A DNA stretch of 46,362 nucleotides from Actinomycetes bacterium (lineage in GTDB: Bacteria > Actinomycetota > Acidimicrobiia > Acidimicrobiales > JABEUL01), in NCBI GenBank assembly GCA_021777355.1, contig JAJYDO010000013.1, positions 1 to 46,362 of the forward strand. The letters run 5' to 3'. The position numbers and the translations under genes were made by a program. Below the pieces are notes generated by a model, which searched no databases, was not told where the DNA came from, and worked only from the letters and a program-made list of their open reading frames with translations. Of this stretch, positions 1 through 34,086 are shown piece after piece (positions within the stretch are counted from its first letter, which is position 1; every line of letters begins with the position of its first letter).

Positions 1-922
1 CAGTGAAGTTGGGAAAGTTTCCGGTGGCTGTGTAGGTACCCTGCGCCGGATTAAATGCCCCTATAAATCCACTTGAGAGCGCTTGCCCGTTTGATGCAAA
101 GCCAGCCCATGTGCCGCTTCCAAAAGTTAACCCGCTAAATGTGGCTCCACTTGGTGCGTATGCATAAATGGCCTGTGTGGCATTGACAGTTAGAGAAGTT
201 GAAAGGCTAGCTTGGTTTGCCAGCGCAAAGGGATTGGCAACATTGGTAGTAGTTGTATTATTTCCTGCAGTTATTGCAATTGCCGCGGAAGGATTTGTGA
301 AATCCAAAAGAACCCCTAAAGGAGCCCCGCTTGCAATGCCAAGCGACTGTGCAAGGGTGGAACTTAATTGCGGCGTTCCCGTCGCCACTACTTTAAACAT
401 CTGAGTTGAACTGTTGTATGTCGACGTGAAGTTTAAAGATCCAGAAGGTAAATCTAACCCGGCAATGCCGAAAGCATTCGGGAAGTCCGTGGTTTGATTC
501 AAAGTCAAAGTTGAATTCGATGGAGTAGTTGAATCTATAGAAGCTGAGGCCTGGAAGGAAGTGGAGGATGCAATTCTTCCACTTGAAGAATCAGCGGCAA
601 TGGTAAGTGTTGCCAATCCCGTATATGTTGTAACCGATCCGGCTGTTGAAACTGTCGGGTTACTTATCACGAGGCTTGCATTTGCACCATTTGTGCAAGA
701 AGTCGAGCACTCCTGGAAAATTGTATAACTTGAGGTTGCGGCTTCGGCCACTCCGCTCGGTTTAACTCCCAAAAATGTAAAGGTCAGACCAAATGTCCCC
801 AATGTTAAGAGTAAGGCAAGTAGCAATTGCTCCCTTCTTAATCGGAGTAATTTTAAGTACTTGAATTGTGCAAAACTAATTACTTTGCTTTGCATGCCGG
901 TTGAAGGCCTATTTCTCACCAT
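1..922 (-). CDS. Exported hypothetical protein, C-terminus truncated by window edge
   Basis: Open minus frame from ATG at 922 to the window edge: MVRNRPSTGMQSKVISFAQFKYLKLLRLRREQLLLALLLTLGTFGLTFTFLGVKPSGVAEAATSSYTIFQECSTSC...; N-terminal hydrophobic signal/anchor, Ser/Thr-rich exported body. Missing from ORF track because no stop is inside the window. Confidence 0.8.
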   Translation of the reverse strand, partial: MVRNRPSTGMQSKVISFAQFKYLKLLRLRREQLLLALLLTLGTFGLTFTFLGVKPSGVAEAATSSYTIFQECSTSCTNGANASLVISNPTVSTAGSVTTYTGLATLTIAADSSSGRIASSTSFQASASIDSTTPSNSTLTLNQTTDFPNAFGIAGLDLPSGSLNFTSTYNSSTQMFKVVATGTPQLSSTLAQSLGIASGAPLGVLLDFTNPSAAIAITAGNNTTTTNVANPFALANQASLSTSLTVNATQAIYAYAPSGATFSGLTFGSGTWAGFASNGQALSSGFIGAFNPAQGTYTATGNFPNFT

Positions 923-944
923 TTACCTATTTAACGAATTTAAA

Positions 945-1144
945 GTTACTTCAGAGTTACAATACTACTCTCAGTAATTTTTAAGTATACTATTACCACT
1001 CTCCGTTACTATAAATTATAAATTAACCTGTAACTCGTGCACTCAAAGCGTTCGTAAGAGTCGATATCCGGAAGATTTTAAAAATTTGCCAATAAAGGTT
1101 ACACCGGTTACTTCAATTTGCAAAATACCTATATCTCTGGTTAC
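945..1144. promoter_or_regulatory. GTTAC/GTAAC repeat cluster in divergent promoter region
   Basis: GTTAC at 945, 956, 1005, 1098, 1107, 1140 and GTAAC at 1030; 945/956 are exactly 11 bp apart. Confidence 0.55.
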
Positions 1145-1153
1145 ATTGAATTC

Positions 1154-3076
1154 ATGACCGCTGGCAAATCTCAGAAGTACCCAATGACAAGTACCCTATA
1201 TCAACTACCTAAATCAATCCAAATTAAAAATCCTAAGGCAAGGTCATTAGTTTCAAATGGCGAGTTCGTTGAACTTGCCGAGCTACTTTCAAAGTGGCTC
1301 GTTGATCCTAAAAAAGAGTCAATTGCTGAAAATATACTGCTTGATCTTTTGGCAATAGGAAAAACCAGTGAACTAAGCAGCGCTATAAAGTTGCTGCCTG
1401 ACATTCCGCTTGCTTTGAATTTATTTATGATAGATGCCGATATTCGTGTTCAAGCGGTTTCTCCCTCCCAGCTTCATGAACTTTTTGCTCAAATTAACGT
1501 GCAAACAAGAATTGACTTTAGGTTATGGCTTTCGGCACTAATTGCGGAGCGTTCTTTATGGCAAGGCGAATTGGTCGGGCTCTGGAGCGCTCAAAGTGCT
1601 CTGGCTCAAGCCCCGGATGTACATGGTCGAATCGCCTATATGGCACGCGGGAGGCTAAAGAGACTTCTGGCGGTAGCTGCAGTCTTGACCAATGGTCCCT
1701 TGGACAAAGCCAACAACGGTCTAGTGCAGGACGTAATACTTGATCTGGAAAAAGCTCAGATGTACGAGGAGATGGCAGCTACGGTCGGCCTAATAGCATG
1801 CATAAAAGTATTTTCGTATTCCCATGAGTGCGTCGATCAACTCGACCTAATTCGCGAAGTAATTGATCAACTCGATCTGCTTAAGTCTGACAGAAAAAAT
1901 ATCTCTCTTTTAGGCCTTGGCTGGGCTGCAGGTTCTGAATGGGATTTCCAAACATTGAAATCATGTGTTTTAGAACTTGAGAATCAGCCGTCTGAGACAA
2001 TGTGGCCTGTTCTGGAAGACGCTTACAAGCTTTTAAAACTTTATTCGGATTTATACGAAAAAGGACCCAGCAAACAGGTTACCGACTTCATCTTTGAAAC
2101 TTTTAAAGATCTAAGGGAAAGCACTATCAGGTTTCCATCTGCAGTAATTTTCCTGTCAAGTTACTTACTGGACATTGGTGAAACTAATACCGCCGAACGC
2201 TTGGCCGAAACGGTAATTGGCCACAATGACCTAACTATCACGTTTGCATCTGAAGCCGCCATCGAGGAGATCGATTTAAGAATCAGGATCCTGAAAAATG
2301 GCGAAATTAGGGCAGCCGAAAGGATGCTGGAGGTAATCAACCGCTGGAAGACAAGCGGGAGACCTAGGCAAGCGGCAAAAGTGGCGCTAAGAGCTGCACG
2401 TGACTGTTCAAGAGCAGGATTACACCCCTTCGCTGAAAAATTCCGCTCAATAGGAGTAAACGATATGCCTCCTAAGGCCGAGCGGACCCCTTGGGAAAAT
2501 TGGCTAATTGATCAACCTGAAACACCACTTTCCGGGACCAATGAAGTCAAGATAATGGGAAGCGATCTTGTGGTCATGAAAAATGGGCGGAGCCTGCCAC
2601 TAACCGACACAGCTGCTTTGCTCTTAACTTATTTAGTACTCGAGCGTAAACCGGTTACAACTTCTTGGCTTATGGAGCAACTATGGCCTGGTGAAAATCC
2701 AGAAAAATCTCAGAATAGGTTAAAAGTGTTGCTTTTCAGATTAAGGAAGTCTTTAGATTTGGCAAGAGACGAGCTCATTTCCAGGGATTCTCGTGGATTC
2801 TCCCTGGATCCGGCGTGGTCATACGACTATATAAAGTTCATGAGATTAATTAGGAGTGATCCCGAATCAAAGTTGAGGGCGCTTAGAGAATTTCCAATTT
2901 CACTTTGTTCAAGGCAGTTTCGATACAATGATGAGATTTCTTGGAAACGTGAGGAAGTTCATGTCTTGTGGAGGGATGCTGCTACTTGGCTAGTTGATGA
3001 GGGCATGCTGTCGCCAGAGGAAGCTCTATCCAGAGCCAGAGAAGTCGACCTTCAATTTTCACTTCACTTTGAATAA
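1154..3076 (+). CDS. Large regulator-like protein with C-terminal OmpR/SARP-type winged helix after a long helical region
   Basis: C-terminal segment LTDTAALLLTYLVLERKPVTTSWLMEQLWPGENPEKSQNRLKVLLFRLRKSL resembles the winged helix of SARP/BTAD-type activators. ORF track start is TTG 1118; ATG 1154 is in frame and likely. Confidence 0.75.
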   Translation: MTAGKSQKYPMTSTLYQLPKSIQIKNPKARSLVSNGEFVELAELLSKWLVDPKKESIAENILLDLLAIGKTSELSSAIKLLPDIPLALNLFMIDADIRVQAVSPSQLHELFAQINVQTRIDFRLWLSALIAERSLWQGELVGLWSAQSALAQAPDVHGRIAYMARGRLKRLLAVAAVLTNGPLDKANNGLVQDVILDLEKAQMYEEMAATVGLIACIKVFSYSHECVDQLDLIREVIDQLDLLKSDRKNISLLGLGWAAGSEWDFQTLKSCVLELENQPSETMWPVLEDAYKLLKLYSDLYEKGPSKQVTDFIFETFKDLRESTIRFPSAVIFLSSYLLDIGETNTAERLAETVIGHNDLTITFASEAAIEEIDLRIRILKNGEIRAAERMLEVINRWKTSGRPRQAAKVALRAARDCSRAGLHPFAEKFRSIGVNDMPPKAERTPWENWLIDQPETPLSGTNEVKIMGSDLVVMKNGRSLPLTDTAALLLTYLVLERKPVTTSWLMEQLWPGENPEKSQNRLKVLLFRLRKSLDLARDELISRDSRGFSLDPAWSYDYIKFMRLIRSDPESKLRALREFPISLCSRQFRYNDEISWKREEVHVLWRDAATWLVDEGMLSPEEALSRAREVDLQFSLHFE

Positions 3077-3206: not shown

Positions 3207-4052
3207 TCACTTCGTAATCGGTTCCTGGACTGCCAAGCAGTAACAACGGTATAGTTCACCTATATTTTTCGGTACAGCATCAAGTTCTATTTCATTTTTT
3301 CCGGCCATCATGGCAATTGCGTCCAGTACGCAAAGCATCTCAATTGAGTCCCAATTCAAATCGGACACTAAATCAGTTGAGGCATCTATTTCCATCCCGC
3401 TATTGAGATGAAACTCGCTTAATCCCGTTAAAAACTCATCGAAAGTCAAAACTTTGTCTACTAACCTATCCTTGTCGGACAAGTTCACAAACCTTTCCAC
3501 AACCTGGCTTTTCACATTTTGGAAGCCACTCCAACTCGCGCTGGAAATTGCAAAAACATGCATGTCCCAAAATCTTCCGTTAAAAAAGCTATGGTCACGA
3601 AGCAAGCCTTCCTTGGCGGCGACTCTGGTCAGTTCTGTTTCAAACTGCTCCAAATTGTAGTCAAGCGTCGAAAAATAGACCTTTCTGAATCGCCACATTT
3701 TAAATAAGTAGTCAATCAGGAGTCCGACACCCTCAACTGCTAGCCCAGTTCCGCGAGTCTCGGGTGTCGAAATGACTCCCAGGTGAGCCCACCCATCTTG
3801 ATGGTTGGCATCAAAAGCAGTGACAAGTCCGACGGGTTTGCCACTCCCAATTGTTTCAGGAACAAATTGGCATAAAACACCCTTCCATAAATTATGGACA
3901 AATTCTTCCGGACCCGGCGTCATTCCTTTGTAACGCCATCTAAAACCCGCATCCTGAGAAAGTGAAATACGATAGAGCCATTCGTAGTCATTTCTATGGA
4001 CCGGACGAAGTCGCACATGCTGTCCGCGCAATTCAGTCGATTCAACTAGCAT
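3207..4052 (-). CDS. GNAT-family N-acetyltransferase fused to C-terminal acyl carrier protein-like domain
   Basis: GNAT-like ETRGTGLAVEGVGLLIDYLF; C-terminal MEIDASTDLVSDLNWDSIEMLCVLDAIAMMAGKNEIELDAVPKNIGELYRCY matches the ACP DSxE helix-II region. GGAGGATAA RBS directly before ATG. Confidence 0.75.
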   Translation of the reverse strand: MLVESTELRGQHVRLRPVHRNDYEWLYRISLSQDAGFRWRYKGMTPGPEEFVHNLWKGVLCQFVPETIGSGKPVGLVTAFDANHQDGWAHLGVISTPETRGTGLAVEGVGLLIDYLFKMWRFRKVYFSTLDYNLEQFETELTRVAAKEGLLRDHSFFNGRFWDMHVFAISSASWSGFQNVKSQVVERFVNLSDKDRLVDKVLTFDEFLTGLSEFHLNSGMEIDASTDLVSDLNWDSIEMLCVLDAIAMMAGKNEIELDAVPKNIGELYRCYCLAVQEPITK

Positions 4053-4503
4053 TTATCCTCCGTTCACATTTTTTAATTTGTAGAGGGCGCAAGTCGGCAG
4101 AAGTGAAGTCCAAGGGATAAACTGGTTTCCTCCGGACAAGCCCAAAAGTGAGTAAGTCGACTTCGCACTGAAAATTACCCTAAGGCAATTGAAATAACCT
4201 AATCGTCGAGACAAATTCCCAAAACACCTTTTGCGTTTCATGGATACCTCTTTCATGATTCGCTAATTAATCCAAGGCCCCGCGGGACAATCCACTAATC
4301 ATGTAGGTACTTGTAACTTACATTTAAGTTTTCACGCTGTCAACTATTGATACAGAAACTAAATCAAGAGTCAACCAAGCAATTTCCAGATCCAATTTGG
4401 AAATTGCTTAACCAATGCTGCCTTCTGGCTATACCTATCTTCATCTGGCTCGGTGAAGATATTTAGAAATAACAGGCAGCTTTCAAAAAGAAAGTCTTTA
4501 AGG

Positions 4504-5532
4504 CTAACCTTTTGGCAATGTAGTTGTAGTCGAAGGAGCACTTGAATACTTATAGTAGGTTGGAAAGTCAAGTACTTCGTTATCGGGTGGCTGTGTCACG
4601 GAAACAGGTTGGTTGAAACTATTTATTTCCACCGACAAATCAAGTTCAATGCCAATATTTGCGATATTAGATGCAATCGATGAGGTAGTTGCTTGCGAAT
4701 TAACCGACTTAATGTTCAGCTTTATGTCAAAACCCCTTAATCTGCCAGAGTTATCAAGAAAAACGTCTAATGCCAGTGAATTCTCTAAGGTCGCAGATAG
4801 AATGCTTGCTAAAGGGCTGGAAGGACCTAGGGAAGCCTCCGCCTTGGCCACGTCCATGCTCGCACTGTACTGGGACACCGCTACCCCATTAAGCAGACCG
4901 GTCTTAGTTTCTTCGACATTTCCAAGCGAGCTAAAAGTCGAAACAAGTTGGTCAATTTCGCCCAAAAGAATATAAATTGAGCTGAATCCCGAGGAATTAA
5001 TCCCTCCGGCGGCAGCGAAAGATTGAGGATTAATATTTGTCCATCTCATCGATGAATACATAGAAGGCAACTTTGAATTATCTATTTGGACAAAGAGTTG
5101 ACTTCCTTTCTCAAGAATATTGAAAGACGATGTGCTGGAAGATGTGGACTTTGCAGTTACAGTACCTGAACTTTCGTGAGACAAGAAATTGGAGGTTCCG
5201 AGCTCATTAAAGGTAGCTAGCGGACCATTTCCATTTCCGAGTGATATTCCTGTAATACCTATTCCTAGCAATGCATCAAACCCAATTCCTCCGCTTTCAT
5301 CCATAAATTTTGGTACGTTATCAATTGCGACTTGGGGATTTGAAGCAAGCGTGCCGGTAAAGTTTGACTGAGGATTCGACGAATTTCCGTTGGTCGCGTA
5401 CACCCCCATCCCGGCAATGCCGGATAAACCCAATACCATTAGCAGTACAACCCCGCCAATGGACGAGGCCTTCCTCCTTCTTTTTCTGTCGTCACTACTG
5501 AATGCTTCAGAAGCGTTTTTTCTCTGAGACAT
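4504..5532 (-). CDS. Hypothetical exported/membrane-anchored protein
   Basis: 342 aa ORF with basic N-terminus RKRRRKASSIGGVVLLMVLGLSGIAGMGVYA followed by a Ser/Asn-rich extracytoplasmic domain. Confidence 0.75.
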   Translation of the reverse strand: MSQRKNASEAFSSDDRKRRRKASSIGGVVLLMVLGLSGIAGMGVYATNGNSSNPQSNFTGTLASNPQVAIDNVPKFMDESGGIGFDALLGIGITGISLGNGNGPLATFNELGTSNFLSHESSGTVTAKSTSSSTSSFNILEKGSQLFVQIDNSKLPSMYSSMRWTNINPQSFAAAGGINSSGFSSIYILLGEIDQLVSTFSSLGNVEETKTGLLNGVAVSQYSASMDVAKAEASLGPSSPLASILSATLENSLALDVFLDNSGRLRGFDIKLNIKSVNSQATTSSIASNIANIGIELDLSVEINSFNQPVSVTQPPDNEVLDFPTYYKYSSAPSTTTTLPKG

Positions 5533-6109
5533 TACCTAGATGCCAATCATGTTTAAGTTATGGCCAAAGTTGCGATATGAGCATATCTGATTATTCTTTG
5601 AACTACGCACAGAAGTTGATTTTAGTTCGCAAAATGGATCTAAAGAGAGGATTTTGAGAATATCTTGAAATTACTCTATTTTTTAAGTTCCGCTAGCACT
5701 TAGTCGAAAAGCTCAAGTTTCGACTTGATTGCATGCATAACATCAAGGTTACCTATAAGTTACACCCATTAATACTTCCTCATTCATCCTTGTCCTCAAC
5801 TACAATTTTTTAGGTTCCTATTAACGTTCAAACTAATTTTGAGGTTTGCTACTTCGCTTTCACTGGAATTTTCGATTGCTTTGAATACTATTAGGAAATA
5901 ACTTTAACAAGCAGGATATTGGCGGGATTAAGAATAGAATTGTATGGCGGCGCAATTTGATCGTGAAAAAGGTTTATTCCTTTTTGAGGAAGCAATGGAT
6001 TTAGGCCTAAGGAGCCTTAAATGTGTTGTCCAAAGGACAGGAGCCGCCGCCTTCAATATTTTGAGAGAACAGTTGATCTGCTGCTTATCTGACATAAGCT
6101 TGTGTCTCT

Positions 6110-7404: not shown

Positions 7405-7638
7405 ATGCGTGGAACCATAGACAAGGCAGGTCGAGTAGTTATTCCCAAAGAGCTTCGTGATCAACTAGGGATAAGAGCTGGGGAAATAGAGATTAATATC
7501 TATGGCTCAGGGGTCCAAATAGAACCAATCGCCGACGACAACTTGATCAAGGAGGGAAATCTTCTGGTAATAAAGGCCTCTGGGACGCCTGTAGATGATC
7601 AATTAATTAGCGCCCTACGACATGCCAACCAAAAGTAA
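7405..7638 (+). CDS. AbrB/SpoVT-MazE family antitoxin (VapB-like)
   Basis: MRGTIDKAGRVVIPKELRDQLGIRAGEIEI is the canonical AbrB swapped-hairpin motif; overlaps a PIN toxin ORF. Confidence 0.9.
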   Translation: MRGTIDKAGRVVIPKELRDQLGIRAGEIEINIYGSGVQIEPIADDNLIKEGNLLVIKASGTPVDDQLISALRHANQK

Positions 7639-8050
7639 AAATGTTTATGCATTTGCCGATACAAGTGTAGCTATCGCCGTGGTTGTGGCCGACCATACCC
7701 ATCACGTTTCAACTATGGCAGTCCTAGGTGATAAACGAATCGGGCTCGCTGGACATGCAATATATGAAACATACTCGGTGCTGACTCGGCTGCCACCGCC
7801 AAACCGTCTTACACCAAAAGCAGCATTGCTAGCCATGCGCCATGACTTTGAGCTTATGGATTACAGCAAGCCGGTTAACGCAAGTGATTTGCTTTACAAG
7901 TGTTCATCCCTTGGAATTTCGGGGGGTGCAATTTATGATGCGCTAGTAGGATGCGTAGCATCAGATCACGGCATCAAACTTGTTACCAGGGACGTTCGGG
8001 CTTTTAGTACTTACCGGGCCCTTGATATCGAAGTGGAACTCATCGACTAA
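7622..8050 (+). CDS. PIN-domain toxin (VapC-like)
   Basis: Acidic PIN motifs FADTSV, YETYSVLTR, YDALVG and TRDVRAF; overlaps the antitoxin ORF by 17 nt. Confidence 0.88.
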   Translation: MPTKSKNVYAFADTSVAIAVVVADHTHHVSTMAVLGDKRIGLAGHAIYETYSVLTRLPPPNRLTPKAALLAMRHDFELMDYSKPVNASDLLYKCSSLGISGGAIYDALVGCVASDHGIKLVTRDVRAFSTYRALDIEVELID

Positions 8051-8152
8051 AAATATTGATCAAGAATTTATCGACTCATTTTGGATAAATAAGTGACTTT
8101 ACATATTGAGTCTTTCAGGCAACAGTCCATTTCGCACTTCTCAAATATCTCG

Positions 8153-8225
8153 AGCCCGAGAGGAGATTCGAACTCCTGACCTGCGCATTACGAGTGCGCT
8201 GCTCTGCCAACTGAGCTACCCGGGC
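8153..8225 (-). tRNA. tRNA-Thr (anticodon CGT)
   Basis: Reverse complement GCCCGGGTAGCTCAGTTGGCAGAGCAGCGCACTCGTAATGCGCAGGTCAGGAGTTCGAATCTCCTCTCGGGCT folds as a cloverleaf; anticodon loop CTCGTAA; no encoded CCA. Confidence 0.95.
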
Positions 8226-19020: not shown

Positions 19021-22000
19021 TCAAAATGACAGCACTTCTGAACCAACAGAACCGAGATAGCCATACCCTACAGCGAGACATTCGGTTGCAGTGGGGCAAG
19101 CAAGGCTGTATGGTGTGGCGCTAGCAGGGGTTTCAATTGTCCAAGTGGAACCTGAGTCCGTTGTGCCAACCAATGTATAGGTAAGGCCGCCGCTGGAGTC
19201 GGTGTAGGAAATAGATGCAAAACATTCGGTTGTAGAAGGGCACGTGATGGATGAGACTAAGTCACCAATTGGAAGTGCGACGGATGTCCAAGTAGCGCCT
19301 GAATCGGTAGTACTTAAGATTATGCCTGCACTTGAGCTGTTGGTTCCAGTTGCAAAACATTCGGTTGTAGAAGGGCACGTGATGGATGAGACCAAGTCAC
19401 CAATTGGAAGTGCGACGGATGTCCAAGTAGCGCCTGAATCGGTAGTACTTAAGATTATGCCTGCACTTGAGCTGTTGGTTCCAGTTGCAAAACATTCGGT
19501 TGTAGAAGGGCAAATGATACTGCCAATAAAACTTATGCCACTGGGGATGGTTTCTGTATTCCAAGTAGAGCCCGCATTTGTAGAACCGATTATTGTTCCA
19601 GAACTAAAAGAGTTGTCGCCACCCCCAAAGCACTCGGTGGGCGATGGACAAGTGATGGAATATATAGAGTCAGTAGTTGGAAGTGTCACTGATGTCCACG
19701 TAGCGCCCGAATCAGTGGTACTTAATATTATGCCTGAACTCGAGTTGCTGTCGGCATCGGCAAAACATTCGGTCGTAGAAGGGCACGTAATGTAATAGAT
19801 CGGTCCAATTGCACTTGGAATTGTCTCCGTGGTCCAAGTTGACCCTGAATCAGTGGTGCCGAGAATTCTGTTGGATCCAGAGCTGTTGGCACCATATGCA
19901 AAGCACTCAGCTACAGACGCGCATGTGATGCTATAAAAGTAGTTCAAACCGCTCGGTATTGTTTCTGCGGTCCAAGTGGCACCTGAATTGTTAGTGCCTA
20001 GGATTATTGGCGCATTAGAATTATCTTGACCATCTAGAAAACACTCGTTGACAGACGCGCAAGTAACGTTGTAGATTTCAGCCACTCCACTCGGGATAGT
20101 CTCGGTTGTCCAAGTTAAACCGGAATCAGTAGTGCCTAAGATTATGCCATCTCCAGAATTACTCCGTCCATCGGCAAAGCACTCAGTGGGAGACGCGCAT
20201 GTGATGTTATAAACGTATTTCATGCCACTTGGAATAGTCTTAGTTGTCCATGTGGCACCTGAATTGGTGGTACCTAAAATTATGCCTTCATTGGAACTAT
20301 TTTGACCATCGGCAAAGCACTCGGTGGGAGAAGCGCATGTTATGTTAAAGAGATAATTCGTTCCACTCGGGATAGTCTCAGTTGTCCATGTGGCACCTGA
20401 ATTGGTGGTACCTAAAATAATTCCGGCACCAGTACTGTTGGAACCAAGTGCAAAGCACTCAGTGGTAGACGCGCATGTGACATTGCCGGAGATTGTATTT
20501 GTGGTCCAGGTGACGCCAGAATTGACAGTGCTCAGGCTAATGTTCCCAGTGCTACTCTGACCATCGGCAAAGCACTCAGTGGGAGACGCGCATGCGATGT
20601 CAAGAAAATACTTCACTCCGCTTGGAATAGTCTCCGTTGTCCATGTGGCACCTGAATTGGTGGTACCTAAAATAATTCCGGCACCAGTAGCGTTGGCGCC
20701 AAGTGCAAAGCACTCAGTGGTAGACGCACATGTGACGTTGTTGACAAAATCTAGACCACTAGGAATAGTCTCCTGAGTCCACGTAGTTCCAGAATTTGTA
20801 GAGCCCAGAATTGCAGTGGTCGAACCGATGGAACCACCTACGAAGCATTCAGTAGAAGAAGGGCAGGATATTGTATCTGTAGTACTTTTATAACCACTTG
20901 GGAATGCCACTGTATTCCAATTTGCACCCGAATTTGTTGTGAATACGAATGTATAAGTAGCTATCAAGGATGGAGATGTCGCCGCTCCAGCAAAGCACTC
21001 AGTAGTCGAGGGACAAGTAATGGTTCCAACAGCGTTTCCACTAGTTGTTGCTTGCGTGGTCCACATAGCTCCGGAGTCAGTACTTTCCAAAATTATTCCC
21101 GTGCCCATATTATTTTGGCCCCCAGCAAAGCACTCGGAAGTAGAAGGACAAGTGATGGCGCCAACGCTATTAGGGTAAGCGGGATACTTTTTTAATATTT
21201 GCAGTGGTTGAAGGTTAGTAAAGCTGTCCTGTGTTGAAGTTGCAGATGTGCCGCTAAGACTAGTAACTGTTATATCAATTGTTCCTGTTGATCCACTTGG
21301 ACTGGTGGCAGTTATTTGACTGTCGCTGTCAAAAGTAAAACTTGCAGCAGTGGCTCCAAAATCAACAGTTGTGGCTCCACTAAATCCTGATCCAGTAATG
21401 GTTACTTGTGTCCCCCCTGTAGTTGGTCCTGAATTAGGTGTTATTGAAGTAACTACTGGGATGGGGATGGTTGAAACTTGTGGAGAGTAGTATCCCATTA
21501 CATCGATTATTAGATCAGCTTTACTTAACGAATAAAGTGTTATCGAGTTATTTACTCCAATTTTTACTATTGCAAGATTTGCCCTCGTTTCACCTGGCGC
21601 CCAGTTGAGATCAGAGACTACAGGTGGATTAGTTGGAATTGACGGCTGTGGATAAAGGGTAAAGAACCCTCCTGAAACTGAATTGGTAGTTGTGACATTA
21701 ATTACTACTGCAACCGCATTGGCCGGTATTGAATCTAATCCAACTACCTGGACATTTATTGATGAATTGCTGTTTAAAGTGCCATTTCCATTGGTGTTAC
21801 ACTGATTGGATGCAACTCCAACTTGTATAGCTCTTGTGTCACAGATCCTAAAAGGCGTGGTACCTGTGAAAAATGATCCTGTAGTAGTTGAGCTATTTCC
21901 TGTGTAGTAGCCATTTATATCTACAATCACATCTAGTGAACCCAAGAAGTTATAAATGGAGATCTCTCCATTTGAGTTAATTGGGACTATTACCCTATTT

Positions 22001-22851
22001 GCCACGCTTTGGCCAATGCCAAAGTTGAGATTAGATGCAGTTGGAAGGCTTGGACCAGGGAAAACCGTTAGAAACCCTGGTGAGGTTGTATTAGTTGCCG
22101 TTACATTGGCTACAACTGCACTGGCATTACTTGGAATACCAGCTAGACCAGCTACTTTTACTTGAAGTGTTGAACCTGTAGACAAAGTGCCATTTCCATT
22201 AGTGTTGCACTGATTTGATACAACGCCTGTTTGTATAGCTCTTGTGTCACAGATCCTTATTGGGGCAAGTGGGACAAACTGGCCAGCTGTAGTTTGGGAT
22301 GCCGGGGGTGCTACATAACCTTGAACGTCTACTATGACATCTGTGGATCCCATGAAGTTATAGATAGATAAATCACCGTTTGATCCAAGTGCAACTTCAA
22401 TTAAGTTTGGGATGCTCTCATTGGCTGTGAAGTTAATACTTGAAGAGTTTGGCTTTGTAGCTCCGGTTGGATAAATAGTTAGATAACCAGGTGAAGTTGT
22501 ATTAGTGGCAGTGACATTAACTACCACTGCAGTTGCATTAGCTGGAATGCTCCCCTGTCCGGCTACATTTACTTGAAGTGTTGAACCTGCAGACAAAGTG
22601 CCATTTCCATTGGTGTTGCACTGATTTGATACAACGCCTGTTTGTATAGCTCTCGTGTCACAGATCCTTATTGGGTTAATCGGGGTATAGATGCCCTGGG
22701 AGCTAGAAGCAAGTGCCTGTACCATTGGGCCGGCGCTTAAATAGGCTCTTAGTGGGACAGCCAGTGATGCTATTAATGCAACTGTGACTAGAGATCTAGC
22801 AACTGTATTCAACCCATTTCTTGATTCAATCCGGTGAGAATTACCTCCCAT
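19021..22851 (-). CDS. Large exported repeat protein: three N-terminal actinobacterial surface repeats, one IPT/TIG domain, 16 BNR/sialidase-like C-X6-C repeats
   Basis: Signal peptide SLVTVALIASLAVPLRAYLSAGPMVQA; triplicated PxRICDTRAIQxGVxSNQCNTNGNGTL; TSITPNSGPTTGGTQVTITGSGFSGATTVDFG; 16 x (I/V)xCxSxxECxxxxx...TxSGxTWT. Confidence 0.9.
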   Translation of the reverse strand: MGGNSHRIESRNGLNTVARSLVTVALIASLAVPLRAYLSAGPMVQALASSSQGIYTPINPIRICDTRAIQTGVVSNQCNTNGNGTLSAGSTLQVNVAGQGSIPANATAVVVNVTATNTTSPGYLTIYPTGATKPNSSSINFTANESIPNLIEVALGSNGDLSIYNFMGSTDVIVDVQGYVAPPASQTTAGQFVPLAPIRICDTRAIQTGVVSNQCNTNGNGTLSTGSTLQVKVAGLAGIPSNASAVVANVTATNTTSPGFLTVFPGPSLPTASNLNFGIGQSVANRVIVPINSNGEISIYNFLGSLDVIVDINGYYTGNSSTTTGSFFTGTTPFRICDTRAIQVGVASNQCNTNGNGTLNSNSSINVQVVGLDSIPANAVAVVINVTTTNSVSGGFFTLYPQPSIPTNPPVVSDLNWAPGETRANLAIVKIGVNNSITLYSLSKADLIIDVMGYYSPQVSTIPIPVVTSITPNSGPTTGGTQVTITGSGFSGATTVDFGATAASFTFDSDSQITATSPSGSTGTIDITVTSLSGTSATSTQDSFTNLQPLQILKKYPAYPNSVGAITCPSTSECFAGGQNNMGTGIILESTDSGAMWTTQATTSGNAVGTITCPSTTECFAGAATSPSLIATYTFVFTTNSGANWNTVAFPSGYKSTTDTISCPSSTECFVGGSIGSTTAILGSTNSGTTWTQETIPSGLDFVNNVTCASTTECFALGANATGAGIILGTTNSGATWTTETIPSGVKYFLDIACASPTECFADGQSSTGNISLSTVNSGVTWTTNTISGNVTCASTTECFALGSNSTGAGIILGTTNSGATWTTETIPSGTNYLFNITCASPTECFADGQNSSNEGIILGTTNSGATWTTKTIPSGMKYVYNITCASPTECFADGRSNSGDGIILGTTDSGLTWTTETIPSGVAEIYNVTCASVNECFLDGQDNSNAPIILGTNNSGATWTAETIPSGLNYFYSITCASVAECFAYGANSSGSNRILGTTDSGSTWTTETIPSAIGPIYYITCPSTTECFADADSNSSSGIILSTTDSGATWTSVTLPTTDSIYSITCPSPTECFGGGDNSFSSGTIIGSTNAGSTWNTETIPSGISFIGSIICPSTTECFATGTNSSSAGIILSTTDSGATWTSVALPIGDLVSSITCPSTTECFATGTNSSSAGIILSTTDSGATWTSVALPIGDLVSSITCPSTTECFASISYTDSSGGLTYTLVGTTDSGSTWTIETPASATPYSLACPTATECLAVGYGYLGSVGSEVLSF
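19217..19486. repeat. Near-identical 135-bp (45-aa) tandem repeat, two copies
   Basis: gcaaaacattcggttgtagaagggcacgtgatggatgaga... at 19217 recurs at 19352 with one visible difference (gactaag/gaccaag). Confidence 0.85.
22159..22676. repeat. Dispersed ~105-bp near-identical repeat, offset 411 bp (137 aa)
   Basis: acttgaagtgttgaacctg..gtgttgcactgatttgatacaacgcctgtttgtatagct..agatccttattggg near 22159-22264 and again near 22570-22676. Confidence 0.75.
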
Positions 22852-26958: not shown

Positions 26959-29900
26959 TTAAGTTACACTTAGCGACTTATTTACAGAAGCCGATGGTCC
27001 GCCATTGTTCAGAACCTCCTGGCCATCAAAGATGACTGCAGTTGAGGTGCCATAAGAGTTTGTAGCTGTCAATGCAACAGTGTAATTGCCTGGAAGTGAA
27101 TAAGTATGGCTCACATTGGGCGTAGACACGACCGTCTGGCTTCCATCTCCGAAGTTCCAGGAGTAAGAAACAATGACGCCACAAGGGGTAGTGGATCCAG
27201 AGGCATCAAACAAAGTAGGGATCCCCCCTACAGCGCCCGAATAGGTGAATGCAGCAGTAGGTGCGGCATCTGCAGTTATGGCTATTCCGGCCGGAATCGA
27301 ACCGTTCTCAACCGTAGCTCCTACAGTTGCTGATGAAATATCAAAAGACACAACTGAAGATGCTCCAGACAGTCCAATCAGCGCAGTAGCGCCTCCCGGA
27401 ACAACTGCAATCGCTGACGGATTGGCACCAACCGTATAAGTTCCGCTTAGGGTATTTGTAGCGGTTGAAATCTCACTGACAGAGTTGGAACCCCTATTTG
27501 CAACCAATAAGGTAGAGCCGTCGCCGGTAATTGCCATTGCGACAGGGGTAGTGCCGACTAGAATCGATGAGTAAGTAAAGCTGCTCAGATTTACGGCAAA
27601 TACTTTGGAGTTCAAACCGTCTGCGACGTAAAGTGTAGACCCGTTTGGATCTACTGCCATTGCATCGAGTCCACCTCCAACCATAATGCGACCAGTTATT
27701 ACTCCGCTTGGAATATTAATAATTGTGATATAGCCTTGATTGGTCTCTGAGTAGTTAGCCACGTATAAAGTATTTCCATTTGGTGATATTGCAAGGGCGC
27801 GAGGTGCCGATGCATCCCCTACCGTAATGGGCGGAAGGGCAGTATCGGTAGAAGTTGAAATAGGAGTCACCGAGCTATCGCCATAGTTGGCAACATATAC
27901 CATGGAACCGTCAGGAGTTACCGCCATTGCCACAGGATCATTTCCGACTAAAATTGCATTCCCGGTGGTCTTTGTGGCCAAAATATATGGAGTTACCGTA
28001 TCGGATAACGAATTTGCTACGAAAACCTGTGAATCATTAGGTGTCACAACTATTTGCTGAGGTGCAGCGCCTGTGCTAACTGGAGAGGCTGCCGTGTTTG
28101 TTTGAAGATTTATAGGAGTAAAACTATTGGCTCCTGCATTTGAAATAAATGCTTGGGGTGGTATTGGGGTGGGCGGCGCACTGACTGGAGAGGGAATAGC
28201 AGGGATTGGAATTGTAGCCGGATAAGCAATTGCTACTTGAAATGCATGAACACTTGTATTCCAGGATTGTCCCAGAGTTCCTGTGGTAACGCTGTAGGAT
28301 TGAAGCTTTCCTGTATAAATGCTGTTGAAATCGGCTACATATGCCTCTTGACTGGGTTGATCAACAGCCATTCCAACGGGTTCGCTAAATCCGGTAATTG
28401 GAGTACCTACAGAAGGCGGCGAAACTGTTAGGTCAAGTGCTACCACTTCATTTGCTCCGGTACAAACCACCTGTGCACTCCTTCCATCTGGTGATATCAC
28501 TATTTGTGAAGGCTGCTTGGGCACTGAAACTGTTGATACGACACTTAGTGTCGTGAGATTGACAACGCTAATAGTGCTTGCAGCTGAATTGACCACATAT
28601 GCAGTCATGCCATCTGGGCTCAGCGCTACACTCATCGGACCTTGCTCAAGAGTTATGGAAGGTCCTACTGCTCCTGTTGCAATTGTAATTGGAACCAAAT
28701 ATCCACTGGTTCCAATTTTGTCGACTACAATCCAGGCCGTTTTGCCATCGGCGGTAATTGCAGCATTTCTAGGATCTCCGGTGAGCGAAGCTGTAATGGT
28801 TGCTCCAGTTCCAGTATTTACTATTGAAACTGAAGATCCCAGCCAGTTGGGAACCACAATTGTCGAGCCATCCGGAGTGATGGCTATTCCCTTGGGGTCC
28901 GCGCCAACGGCAAATGTTTTAGTTATAGCCCCAGTTGCCGTAGAAATGACACTCACTTCATTGCTTGCTGCATCTGTAACATAAAGGGTACTCGAGTCAG
29001 GTGAAACTGCGATTCCATTAGGTTGATTCATTCCAGCAATTGGTGCCAACAACGTATTACTCTCGATATTGACTGGATAAACGAGATGGTATGCGGCATT
29101 AGTCACATAAGCAATGCTGTTGATTGCATACAAATAGTTCCCCGCCAAATCAGTTCCCTTTGGCGTAGTAGCAGATACTGCAACATAATTTCCTGCAGTT
29201 CCAGGAGGAGTATAGATAGTAACTGTTCCGTTTCCGTTGATCACAAAGCACCGTAAATAGCTTCCGATCGCACACGAATTTAAGGTATAAGAACCAAAAG
29301 TTACCGAAGTTGTTCCTCCTAATCCCGTTCCTGATATAACTGTAATTGCGCCGCCTACGCTAGGCCCAACGAGAGGCGAGAGGCTAAGGCCAGATGGGAC
29401 AATCGTTGTAGTGCCCGTTCCGGGATCTACGGCACTTCCTGAAGTTGCACCAACAGAAGTATCCGTGCCATTTGAAGCCAAGGCATTGGCTATTAAGGAC
29501 GCGCTGGGAGACACTGCTGCACTGATTGTGATTACAGACAGCGACGTTCCTCCTTGAAGCGGCTCAAGGCCAGAAACGTTAGTTGAGTCGCAGATAACGT
29601 CTTGTCCAAGGATTGTGCAATTCCACCCGTTTCCTGATGACGCTACCGGAGTGACTCCTGCGGGAAAAACGTAAGTCACGCTAACCTGATTTGGATCAGC
29701 ACCTCCGATAATTGAAGCTGCAGCAACAACCGAATATGTCACCAAACCACCAAGTGGCAGGCTTCCATTTTGATTGTCCGTGACTGTTAAGGTCAAAACC
29801 GGATTGGCCGTATACGTGTAAAGTCCTGCTGAAGCAGTTCCACTCGCGGTAGTCACTGAAACTGAAACACTGCCACCGGAAGTACCCGGAGGTGCGTAAA

Positions 29901-32900
29901 GCGTCAGTGTCCCGTTGGAATTGACTACGAAACACTGCGACCAACTGGAGATGGCACAGGCATCCAAAGTGTAGGTTCCAAACGCCACCGATTGCGCGCC
30001 GTTCAATCCGGATCCACTTACCGTCGTCGCCCCGCCGCCCGCGGCCGGACCAAAATTGGGGGTTAATGCAAGACCGCTTGGGGTAACGGATGCAACCCCT
30101 GTACCAGAAGCGATTACAAAAGCAGACGTACCATCTTGCGAAGCTGCTGAGCCGTTAGAAGAAAGCGCTCCAGGTGAAGTTGAAGCGGTAAGCGAAACAG
30201 ATGCCTGAAGGTAAATGCTTGGAAGCAACGATCCGGCAGACAACGGATTAGAACTTGAAATATTGGTCGTGATACAAGTAACAACCTGGCTCGAAATTGA
30301 ACACGACCAGTTGGTTCCAGCGACCGAAGCTGGGCTCAATCCGGCAGGGAGAGTATACGTTACTGTAACGGGCTGAGTTTCACTTCCACCTGTTGCAAGG
30401 GTCCCTGAGTCAATCGTGAATATTACGGAACCTCCAAGCGGGAAATTGTTGCCTTGGTTATCCGATTCGGTGATATTAAGAATTGGATCTGCAAAATATA
30501 AGTAGTTTCCAACAGACACTGAGCCGGTGGAAGTTACCAATGAAACAAGAACGGAAGTGTTAGCAGATCCCGGTGGAGCGTAAAGGGAAAGTGTTCCGTC
30601 AGCGTTGACCAAAAAGCACTGCGTTAGAACTCCTGGCCCACAAAGGCTTAATGAATATGTTCCAAATGTTACCGAGGTTACACCACCTAAATTAAGTCCC
30701 GAAATCACCACTCTTGCACCACCTTCACTGGGACCAGAATTTGGAGTCATTGAAAGATTAGTCGGTATGAGAGGCGTAACTCCTGTTCCCGGATCATCTG
30801 CATATACAGTTGCCGAATCCCCTGAAGATGAATTTGAAGCGGAACTAAGTGCGCCTTGCGTAGTTGAGGCAGTTGCAGAAATTGTCGCATTGACTGTAAT
30901 GGCTGCAAGTGAAGAACCTGCATCAAGAGGATTTGAGTTTGACAGAGTCGGCATGATACATGTCACAACTTGCCCGGCTATCGAACAGGTCCAGCTTTGA
31001 CCTTGTGCAGCATCTGGAATCACCCCGCTTGGAGCTGTAAATTTGGCCGTCACAGGCCTTGTCTCTACACTGCTTCCAGACAGGTTGCTTACTACTACTG
31101 AATAAGCGACGGTTCCTCCTAGAGGGAGAGATCCGTCTTGACTATCGGTAATATAAACTTCAAGGACAGGATCAGATGTGTAGGTATAACTAACGGGAGA
31201 ACTGGTTCCACTTCGATTGGTTACCGATACTGCAACCGCGTTGCCAGAAGTTCCAGAAGGAGTGAAGGTGCTAAGTGTCCCATTTGAATTGATGTTGAAA
31301 CAGTTAGAAGTTACACCTGCTGCACAAACATATAGAGTTGACGCTCCAAAATTGACTCTTGTGGCACCGGCCAACCCTGTGCCTGAAATAACAGTCACTG
31401 CCCCTCCCGCCGCGGGACCGGAATTCGGGGTTAACGTTAGACCAGCAGGCGCTATTGACACTGTCCCAGTTCCGGGATCGCTAGCACTGACAGTAGTCGC
31501 GTCGCTTGAAGACAAAGATCCATGTGAAGTAAGGGCATTGGGCGAGGTTGATGCGTTAAGCGCAATATCAGCAACTACTGTTACCGGAGACATCGATACC
31601 CCGGGATTGAGAGGAGTGGTACTTGTTATTCCTGTAGAAGTACAAGTGACCGTAGGCGAGGAAACAGTGCAAAGCCAACCAATTCCTGCGGCCGATTTTG
31701 GCGTAACCCGAGGTGCAAGAGTATATGAGAGGGTGAGTTGCTTAGTTTCAGGGGCGCCAGCATTTATTGCCGAGGCGATCAAAATGTAGTCCACTGATCC
31801 TCCCCGATAAAGAGTGCCGTTTTGATTATCACTTACGCTGAGACCAAGAATTGGAGTCGAACTATATATGTAATTTCCTGCCGAAAATGTTCCGAGTGGA
31901 GTAACGATACTTACAGCTACCGCGTTGCCGGAAGTTCCAGGCGGCGGGTAAAGAGATATATTGTTAGCTGAATTTACGGTAAAGCACTGAGAAGTCGAGC
32001 CTGGACTGCAGAGATTTAAAGTGTAAGTGCCGAAAGCAACCGACATGGCACTTCCCGCCCCAGCTCCCGTAAGTGTCGTAGCTACGCCTCCAATTGATGG
32101 GCCAGTTGTCGGATTCAGTGAATATGGACCGGTCCCGCCAGGTGAAAGTCCAGTTCCAGGGTCAAAGGCCGATGCAGATGTGGCGTCACCCGAAGAAGCG
32201 GTTCCCAGGATCTCTAGCGCATTTGCGGCAGTACTTGCTCCGCTTGAGACTGATGCATTTACAGTTAACGGCGCCAAAGCGGTACCTGGTGCTAAAGGAT
32301 AAATAGACGACACATTTGTAGTGACACAAGTCACTGCCTGTCCCGAGATCGCACAACTCCAGTTTGATCCGCCAGCGGCGCTAGCCGTTATACCGGTCGG
32401 CATTAAAAACGAATCAGTTACAGATTCGCTCTCCTGCCCGCCGGTTAATAAAGCCGAACTATTAGCTGTATAGGTAATCGTTCCTCCCAAAGGAGGAGTT
32501 CCTCCCTGGTTGTCACTAAGCTGCAAACCTATTACAGGTGCAACTGATCCCGTATCTGTTGTAAAGGCGGAAAGTGCATCGTTAGAAGATACCTGACCAT
32601 TTGAACTAAGTGCTCCGGTGATATTTGAAACCGAGTTAGATACCGTTGCGGAAATGGAAATATCAGGAAGATCAGTCCCTGAAATCAATGGATTAGAAGG
32701 TGAAACAGTTGTGGAACTGCATGTGACCACTTGGGCAACTACAGAACAAGTCCAACCTATCCCTTGGGCTCCGGTGGGAGTGATTCCTATCGGGAGAGTG
32801 TAGTTGATTGTAACTGGATTTGTTTCATTGGAGCCGCTAGCTAAAACACCTGAAGCTAGCGTGTAAGTGATTGGCGATCCAGGAATAAGTTTTCCATTTT

Positions 32901-34086
32901 CAGAATCAGTTGCACCAAGTGTGAGCAACGGAGCCGCCGAGTTAAGTGAAGTTACTTTTAAATTGTTCACTTCGTGCACATCGGTAGAACCACCGGTGGA
33001 TGCGTAAAAACCTGCGACTAAAAGATAGGGAAGTCCTGTCGTCGGATTGATCCAGCTTGCAGGGTACAACCCTGAGGGAATCCCGCCGTTTAGAGTTGTA
33101 GGAATAGGATCGCTAAAAGTCTGAAGCGAACCACCAATTCCAGTAACTGCGGCAATCATCGAATACGGTGGAACCACTAGCCCTGAGGCAGTTGTGATAC
33201 TTGTCCCACTTGGATTCATTGCAAATTCAACCGGCACCAGAGCATTTGATCTTGGAGGTGGAAGTGTAACTGGATTAAACGTCCCGTTTAATCCATAGTA
33301 AGTAGTGTTGGCAAGTGTTGAGTCGATTAAGCAATAGCCTGATTCGTTATTTCCCGGGCCCCGCAAAGTAACGTTCACAGGATTTGCGCTCCCCAACGGA
33401 TTTATATTTGTAAGCCAAGAAGGGTCGCTGCACCCGCTGCCGTCAAAGCTCGAGTTGGTAAAGTTTCCATAATTGTCAAGACCAAGTCCCAAATATCCAT
33501 AAGGAAGGCCATTTCCTGCCGGAGCCGCAGTGCCTCCGGCATATCCAAGGTGTCCGCCTGCAGGTCCGGTGGTAGTTGGCGGCACAGGATCTCTAGGGTT
33601 GGCAACTGAAAAAGCAAGAGAAATTCCGTCGGCGCCGGTTCCACCGTATTGATAACTTTTAAAGGTCACGTCGATCCCGGCTGCTGTTGGAAACGCTGAA
33701 GTCATAGTGACCCCGCCTGCTAAATTTCCCTGCGCATCAGTAAGCCGCAACGCTCCGTTCCCATTTGAATCAGGCGAAGCTTCATTGCATCCGGGTATTG
33801 GGGTCTGAGTGGTATCCGTTCCTGCGGTTAAGCATGCCACATTTTTCGCACCTGGAACCAGTGGAAGCGCAAGGGGTCCCTGTTCTGTTCTGTTTGCAAA
33901 TGAGTAGTTAAGATAAGTGCTTGTTACCCCCGATGCACCGGCTAACTTACTATTTAGAACTGATGTTGAAACTGAAATACATGTAAATACTGTGACAAGT
34001 ATTATCAGTGACTTCAAAACCGATGATACTCGAACTAAATCAAGTGACCAAAACTTGGCGCGCCTTTTCCCACTCTCTTGCAACAT
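26959..34086 (-). CDS. Giant exported surface protein: L-type lectin-like N-domain, alternating DUF11-like and IPT/TIG repeats, YVTN-type beta-propeller repeats, C-terminal PKD domain
   Basis: Signal peptide LKSLIILVTVFTCISVSTSVLNSKLAGASG; GGTGADGISLAFS/GYLGLGLDNYGNF lectin-like; repeated DNQNGSLPLGG...WSCxIxGQVVTC and TPNSGPxxGGAxTVISGxGLGG; repeated AITPDGSTxYVxNxxxxxVSxI; YSWNFGDGSQTVVSTPNVSHTYSLPGNYTVALTATN (PKD). Confidence 0.92.
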   Translation of the reverse strand: MLQESGKRRAKFWSLDLVRVSSVLKSLIILVTVFTCISVSTSVLNSKLAGASGVTSTYLNYSFANRTEQGPLALPLVPGAKNVACLTAGTDTTQTPIPGCNEASPDSNGNGALRLTDAQGNLAGGVTMTSAFPTAAGIDVTFKSYQYGGTGADGISLAFSVANPRDPVPPTTTGPAGGHLGYAGGTAAPAGNGLPYGYLGLGLDNYGNFTNSSFDGSGCSDPSWLTNINPLGSANPVNVTLRGPGNNESGYCLIDSTLANTTYYGLNGTFNPVTLPPPRSNALVPVEFAMNPSGTSITTASGLVVPPYSMIAAVTGIGGSLQTFSDPIPTTLNGGIPSGLYPASWINPTTGLPYLLVAGFYASTGGSTDVHEVNNLKVTSLNSAAPLLTLGATDSENGKLIPGSPITYTLASGVLASGSNETNPVTINYTLPIGITPTGAQGIGWTCSVVAQVVTCSSTTVSPSNPLISGTDLPDISISATVSNSVSNITGALSSNGQVSSNDALSAFTTDTGSVAPVIGLQLSDNQGGTPPLGGTITYTANSSALLTGGQESESVTDSFLMPTGITASAAGGSNWSCAISGQAVTCVTTNVSSIYPLAPGTALAPLTVNASVSSGASTAANALEILGTASSGDATSASAFDPGTGLSPGGTGPYSLNPTTGPSIGGVATTLTGAGAGSAMSVAFGTYTLNLCSPGSTSQCFTVNSANNISLYPPPGTSGNAVAVSIVTPLGTFSAGNYIYSSTPILGLSVSDNQNGTLYRGGSVDYILIASAINAGAPETKQLTLSYTLAPRVTPKSAAGIGWLCTVSSPTVTCTSTGITSTTPLNPGVSMSPVTVVADIALNASTSPNALTSHGSLSSSDATTVSASDPGTGTVSIAPAGLTLTPNSGPAAGGAVTVISGTGLAGATRVNFGASTLYVCAAGVTSNCFNINSNGTLSTFTPSGTSGNAVAVSVTNRSGTSSPVSYTYTSDPVLEVYITDSQDGSLPLGGTVAYSVVVSNLSGSSVETRPVTAKFTAPSGVIPDAAQGQSWTCSIAGQVVTCIMPTLSNSNPLDAGSSLAAITVNATISATASTTQGALSSASNSSSGDSATVYADDPGTGVTPLIPTNLSMTPNSGPSEGGARVVISGLNLGGVTSVTFGTYSLSLCGPGVLTQCFLVNADGTLSLYAPPGSANTSVLVSLVTSTGSVSVGNYLYFADPILNITESDNQGNNFPLGGSVIFTIDSGTLATGGSETQPVTVTYTLPAGLSPASVAGTNWSCSISSQVVTCITTNISSSNPLSAGSLLPSIYLQASVSLTASTSPGALSSNGSAASQDGTSAFVIASGTGVASVTPSGLALTPNFGPAAGGGATTVSGSGLNGAQSVAFGTYTLDACAISSWSQCFVVNSNGTLTLYAPPGTSGGSVSVSVTTASGTASAGLYTYTANPVLTLTVTDNQNGSLPLGGLVTYSVVAAASIIGGADPNQVSVTYVFPAGVTPVASSGNGWNCTILGQDVICDSTNVSGLEPLQGGTSLSVITISAAVSPSASLIANALASNGTDTSVGATSGSAVDPGTGTTTIVPSGLSLSPLVGPSVGGAITVISGTGLGGTTSVTFGSYTLNSCAIGSYLRCFVINGNGTVTIYTPPGTAGNYVAVSATTPKGTDLAGNYLYAINSIAYVTNAAYHLVYPVNIESNTLLAPIAGMNQPNGIAVSPDSSTLYVTDAASNEVSVISTATGAITKTFAVGADPKGIAITPDGSTIVVPNWLGSSVSIVNTGTGATITASLTGDPRNAAITADGKTAWIVVDKIGTSGYLVPITIATGAVGPSITLEQGPMSVALSPDGMTAYVVNSAASTISVVNLTTLSVVSTVSVPKQPSQIVISPDGRSAQVVCTGANEVVALDLTVSPPSVGTPITGFSEPVGMAVDQPSQEAYVADFNSIYTGKLQSYSVTTGTLGQSWNTSVHAFQVAIAYPATIPIPAIPSPVSAPPTPIPPQAFISNAGANSFTPINLQTNTAASPVSTGAAPQQIVVTPNDSQVFVANSLSDTVTPYILATKTTGNAILVGNDPVAMAVTPDGSMVYVANYGDSSVTPISTSTDTALPPITVGDASAPRALAISPNGNTLYVANYSETNQGYITIINIPSGVITGRIMVGGGLDAMAVDPNGSTLYVADGLNSKVFAVNLSSFTYSSILVGTTPVAMAITGDGSTLLVANRGSNSVSEISTATNTLSGTYTVGANPSAIAVVPGGATALIGLSGASSVVSFDISSATVGATVENGSIPAGIAITADAAPTAAFTYSGAVGGIPTLFDASGSTTPCGVIVSYSWNFGDGSQTVVSTPNVSHTYSLPGNYTVALTATNSYGTSTAVIFDGQEVLNNGGPSASVNKSLSVT

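Follow-up and report, generated by a model that had tools for sequence, protein, structure and literature searches.

The question raised by this locus is whether a short word repeated between two divergent genes forms part of a genetic switch. The window, by which we mean the whole stretch of 46,362 bp that was analyzed, begins with a leftward gene for an exported protein (positions 2 to 922, minus strand; ATG at 922), of which 307 amino acids are seen before the contig end cuts it. Across an intergenic region of 231 bp (923–1153; 31% G+C) lies a rightward gene (1154–3076, plus strand) encoding an orphan regulator of 640 amino acids. We propose that a 22-bp box at 939–960 is a putative operator through which the neighboring SARP-like protein activates the exported-protein gene, a reading to which we assign a probability of roughly 0.45.

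All seven copies of the pentamer GTTAC (or its reverse complement, GTAAC) that the initial annotation had reported from about 200 bp were located. They span 945 to 1144 (200 bp), with six on the plus strand (945, 956, 1005, 1098, 1107, and 1140) and one on the minus strand (1030). It estimated that well under one copy would be expected; we computed 0.86 for the 231-bp region from dinucleotide shuffles and 0.25 from the genome’s own intergenic background; none of 2000 dinucleotide shuffles of 923–1153 reached seven. In the background, 374 kb sampled from this genome as 20 stretches and the window, GTTAC occurs between genes at 1.2 per kb and ranks 142nd among the 160 intergenic pentamers with two G/C, a scarcity that sets it apart from generic promoter words, and any other 231-bp stretch of the sample held at most five copies. 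When all pentamers were compared over 146 intergenic intervals (45.5 kb), GTTAC in 923–1153 was the most extreme cluster (Poisson 1 × 10−8, runner-up 1.5 × 10−6), and it was never matched in 60 first-order Markov simulations of all the intervals. These statistics were computed after the cluster had been picked, and 17% of shuffles of this interval bring some pentamer to seven copies, because AT-rich words do so. With this caveat of post hoc selection, the cluster is a real, non-random sequence feature. The search for structured RNA gave no Rfam match except one tRNA, and the folding z-score was −0.5. Elsewhere in the window, a MazE-like antitoxin/PIN-domain toxin pair (7405–8050, plus strand) adjoins a tRNA-Thr (8152–8225).

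The copies at 945 and 956 stand at an exact 11-bp period, as first described, and the pair extends to two 11-mers. Read toward the leftward gene, from 960 to 939 on the minus strand, the adjoining units GTAACTCTGAA and then GTAACTTTAAA are identical at 9 of 11 positions and form a 22-bp box at −38 to −17 of ATG 922. Two cases of such intergenic pairs of 11-bp repeats were found in the window, and exact period-11 pentamer repeats occur at about 0.0014 per center per gene in the genome’s own upstream regions. SARPs bind direct repeats 11 or 22 bp apart, with the 3′ repeat 8 bp from the −10 element. Judged from sequence, the repeats at 939–960 have the 11-bp period and nearly the 8-bp distance to a candidate leaderless −10, TTAAAT (929–934, minus strand; −12 to −7 of ATG 922), which matches TATAAT at four of six positions, as do hexamers over-represented at −12 in this genome; both this element and the 10-bp gap separating it from the repeat had been read correctly. 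The other five copies of GTTAC do not obey the 11-bp rule, among them the single copies at 1005–1009 (plus strand) and 1030–1034 (minus strand), which have no 11-bp partner.

In Streptomyces coelicolor, the afs box consists of two 11-bp repeats at −40 to −19 of a promoter whose −10 and −35 elements are poor, and suboptimal −10 elements are described for SARP promoters (PMC10936776). Given an assumed start at 922, the box studied here fits that position to within 2 bp, and the two systems share a pair of 11-bp direct repeats near −40 to −17 over a poor promoter. The SARP-box geometry that had been claimed is borne out by the 11-bp pair, relative to an assumed leaderless start at 922. A consensus promoter scan found nothing, and the TTAAAT of the leftward gene departs from the TAnnnT pattern described below.

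We counted promoter signals before the 146 genes of this genome that have intergenic upstream DNA. TAnnnT stood at −12 in 14 of them and at −13 in seven, with about two or three at most other positions, and an SD-like word was present in only 32. By these counts, leaderless transcripts appear to be common in this uncultured Acidimicrobiales genome; two papers (PMC3160421, PMC3898074) report them in other actinobacteria. The genome’s signal at −12 makes a transcription start at 922 plausible, and a TAA lies in frame immediately upstream of ATG 922. The regulator gene carries its own putative leaderless −10, TACATT, which GTTAC 1140 overlaps (1140–1147, plus strand); as TACATT lies exactly at −12 of ATG 1154, this copy of the pentamer is accounted for by the −10.

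The regulator consists of a helical N-terminal part, a winged helix at about residues 463–551, and about 75 residues of truncated BTA-like helices that run to the C-terminus. A scan of the whole protein against Pfam gave one weak match, Trans_reg_C at 478–541, and matched no receiver domain. Trans_reg_C scored 23.6–27.5 bits, depending on the flank given, against a cut-off of 26.2. The N-terminal 460 residues are predicted, at low confidence, to be helical. We modeled residues 455–640 (186 residues) after aligning them with ten SARP-type proteins encoded in related genomes and obtained a mean pLDDT of 85. The five best PDB matches of the model were AfsR in transcription complexes and EmbR, with AfsR the best, at TM-scores of about 0.5 by query length. 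In AfsR, a complete BTA domain of seven helices directly follows the winged helix. Here four helices are predicted after the winged helix, the later sigma-touching helices of AfsR are absent from the activation domain, and Pfam BTAD has no match in the regulator, whereas it matches all ten of the aligned relatives.

A standard SARP has its SARP domain at the N-terminus, and in this protein the winged helix is C-terminal; related C-terminal SARP-type versions exist in related genomes. The protein is best called SARP-like, and not a SARP by definition. Of the SARP-type winged helix in the initial annotation, the fold stands, with AfsR as the best structural match, and the C-terminal position, the truncated activation domain, and the missing BTAD match speak against the rest. 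The regulator is the only SARP-like protein found in the searched genomes of its family, which are otherwise without BTAD proteins: a whole-genome search found none in this genome or in three others of the family.

Like AfsR, the regulator has an OmpR-type winged helix, and like AfsR and other large SARPs, it has an extra helical part. Unlike AfsR, it carries the winged helix toward the C-terminus, with an activation domain of some 75 residues and no NOD/ATPase match, and it would act on an exported-protein gene whose start is probably leaderless. EmbR of Mycobacterium tuberculosis also has a winged helix followed by helices, but the protein studied here has no FHA domain and its domain order differs. 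In three SARP-type regulators encoded by related genomes (L094, L095, and L096), a long, mostly helical part likewise precedes a winged helix close to the C-terminus; they differ in carrying a full BTAD, with 19–27% identity over the alignment, and L095 and L096 have, in addition, a P-loop ATPase-like part at the N-terminus. The winged-helix type and the direct-repeat period are shared with OmpR/PhoB response regulators, from which the 640-amino-acid protein differs in having no matched receiver domain.

The distribution of the motif is local. The exact pattern GTTAC-N6-GTTAC occurs three times in 2.78 Mb, against 2.3 expected and nine in a reversed-pattern control, counts that do not support a general motif before exported-protein genes. 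Two of these pairs, at 945 and 5748, are the only intergenic ones; they lie 4.8 kb apart, each upstream of a leftward exported-protein gene, and the chance of a second exact pair within 5 kb is about 0.008. The third sits at the start of a tetR-type gene on contig C21. The second box (5742–5763, plus strand; ATCAAGGTTAC and CTATAAGTTAC) is about 215 bp upstream of ATG 5532, and so outside the SARP distance, before a gene (4504–5532, minus strand) for a protein of 342 amino acids distantly like the SCO4651 lipoprotein family. No 11-bp GTTAC pair of this kind stands in the upstream regions of that protein’s homologs. With a degenerate 22-bp box, which was built from these same two sites, the 945 and 5748 sites were the genome’s two best, both within 5 kb of the regulator gene; genome-wide it gave 15 matches against 26 for the reversed control, no excess. 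Searches for a regulon by an extended consensus or a triple cluster likewise gave nothing above controls. The next-best hits of these searches are mostly in or at coding sequence (the tetR-type start on C21; an aminotransferase gene on C37). An exception is the third-best match to the 22-bp box, with two mismatches (C23:36446; L122 1501–1521), which precedes by about 118 bp an exported-protein gene that has a good SD. We find no support for a wider exported-protein system; no genome-wide regulon was found, and a local pair of sites is possible. Such a motif, local rather than genome-wide, is as expected for a local regulator.

This distribution also bears on the identity of the binding protein. 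OmpR/PhoB-family response regulators likewise recognize direct repeats spaced at about 11 bp, and of the 11 Trans_reg_C proteins in this genome, ten are OmpR-type frames of response-regulator size, the 640-amino-acid regulator being the sole exception. The repeats could accordingly be the operator of one of those ten, for example a PhoP/PhoB-like box, with the neighboring gene incidental. We consider this unlikely, because a global response regulator would be expected at more sites, whereas the exact pair is intergenic at two places only, both within 5 kb of the 1154–3076 gene.

In the sister species, which keeps the adjoining acetyltransferase gene at 80% DNA identity, other sequence stands where the regulator and the exported-protein gene would be, and neither gene was found there, which precludes footprinting of the intergenic region. 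The intergenic DNA at 923–1153 had no meaningful match in relatives. The exported protein (2–922) had no Pfam or NCBIfam match and no convincing relative in 11 related genomes. For the regulator, 58 related genomes gave weak matches to the winged-helix part only, and no ortholog was found in peptide scans of GTDB contigs and IMG/VR viral contigs, or in plasmids. No relative with the same arrangement was found in the related genomes searched; conservation is therefore unsupported, and this is the main limit on our confidence.

The neighboring acetyltransferase gene (3207–4052, minus strand), 79% identical in the sister species, encodes a GNAT domain with an extra C-terminal part that by eye is acyl carrier protein-like (motif DSIEML); Pfam matched the acetyltransferase part and, weakly, YbjQ. 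Upstream of it, a stretch without a convincing gene (4212–4367) has 76% DNA identity to the sister species (L118 4749–4907) and might represent a leader, small RNA, or small gene. Farther along the window, two genes (19021–22851 and 26959–34086, both minus strand) encode very large proteins that contain TIG, PKD, and beta-propeller repeats; the first of these is matched many times over by a sister-species contig (L119), in overlapping, repeat-like fashion.

Since conservation is not demonstrable, and genome-wide pair counts are near expectation, most of the cluster might be a coincidence of AT-rich intergenic DNA, made up of a chance pair, a −10 element, and scattered pentamers; the 17% of single-interval shuffles that give some pentamer seven copies point the same way. 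We judge this improbable, on a par with an operator for another regulator, as GTTAC is rare between genes, its interval is the extreme of the 146 and unmatched by simulation, and the 945/956 pair stands at activator distance.

The sites on the right do not repeat the pattern of those on the left. The GGTTAC repeats of the element at 1092–1111 (plus strand; copies 1098 and 1107, −56 to −43 of ATG 1154) are spaced at 9 bp; the unit ATAAAGGTTAC within it is identical to ATCAAGGTTAC (5742–5752) at 10 of 11 positions, and GTTAC-N6-GTTAC is absent from the 1154 promoter even when up to two mismatches are allowed. With no 11-bp repeat there, and with GTTAC 1140 forming part of the −10, the autoregulation that had been suggested is unsupported. 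That the regulator represses both itself and the exported-protein gene through scattered copies, by cooperative repression or by looping across the intergenic DNA, is the least likely of the alternatives: both promoters carry sites (945/956 on the left; 1098/1107 and 1140 on the right), and 1107 and 1140 are 33 bp, or three turns, apart, but the right-hand spacing is 9 and not 11 bp, the −10 itself accounts for the 1140 site, and just one right-hand unit resembles the consensus beyond GTTAC.

In the activation that we propose, the 22-bp box at 939–960 would serve the leftward exported-protein gene as its activator site. Bound in tandem to the 11-bp repeats, across a weak −35 and spacer, the SARP-like protein would recruit RNA polymerase to a leaderless promoter, with the transcript starting at about ATG 922. 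The helical N-terminal part of the regulator probably responds to a signal and holds the C-terminal DNA-binding domain in check, and the protein may act at the second site (5742–5763) as well. We infer binding, and activation as the direction of its effect, from the repeats, their spacing, the genome’s leaderless signal, and the predicted AfsR-like fold. The undescribed switch for an exported protein that was first suggested survives as a local candidate operator, shorn of autoregulation and of a general motif for exported-protein genes.

The GTTAC arrangement is probably an ordinary local genetic switch, seen in a single genome. As it stands, the finding is a well-defined single-genome candidate operator beside a divergent regulator gene, which is a common arrangement. 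We regard with more doubt the stronger proposal that a SARP-like activator, having lost most of its sigma-contacting domain, uses an afs-like 22-bp box at a leaderless promoter and controls exported proteins instead of antibiotic synthesis; the unusual part of it, a SARP-like protein whose activation domain is cut short, comes from one gene in one metagenome assembly. If it is true, a SARP-like winged helix would activate with a much reduced activation domain, and SARP-like activation would extend outside secondary metabolism, at a leaderless promoter.
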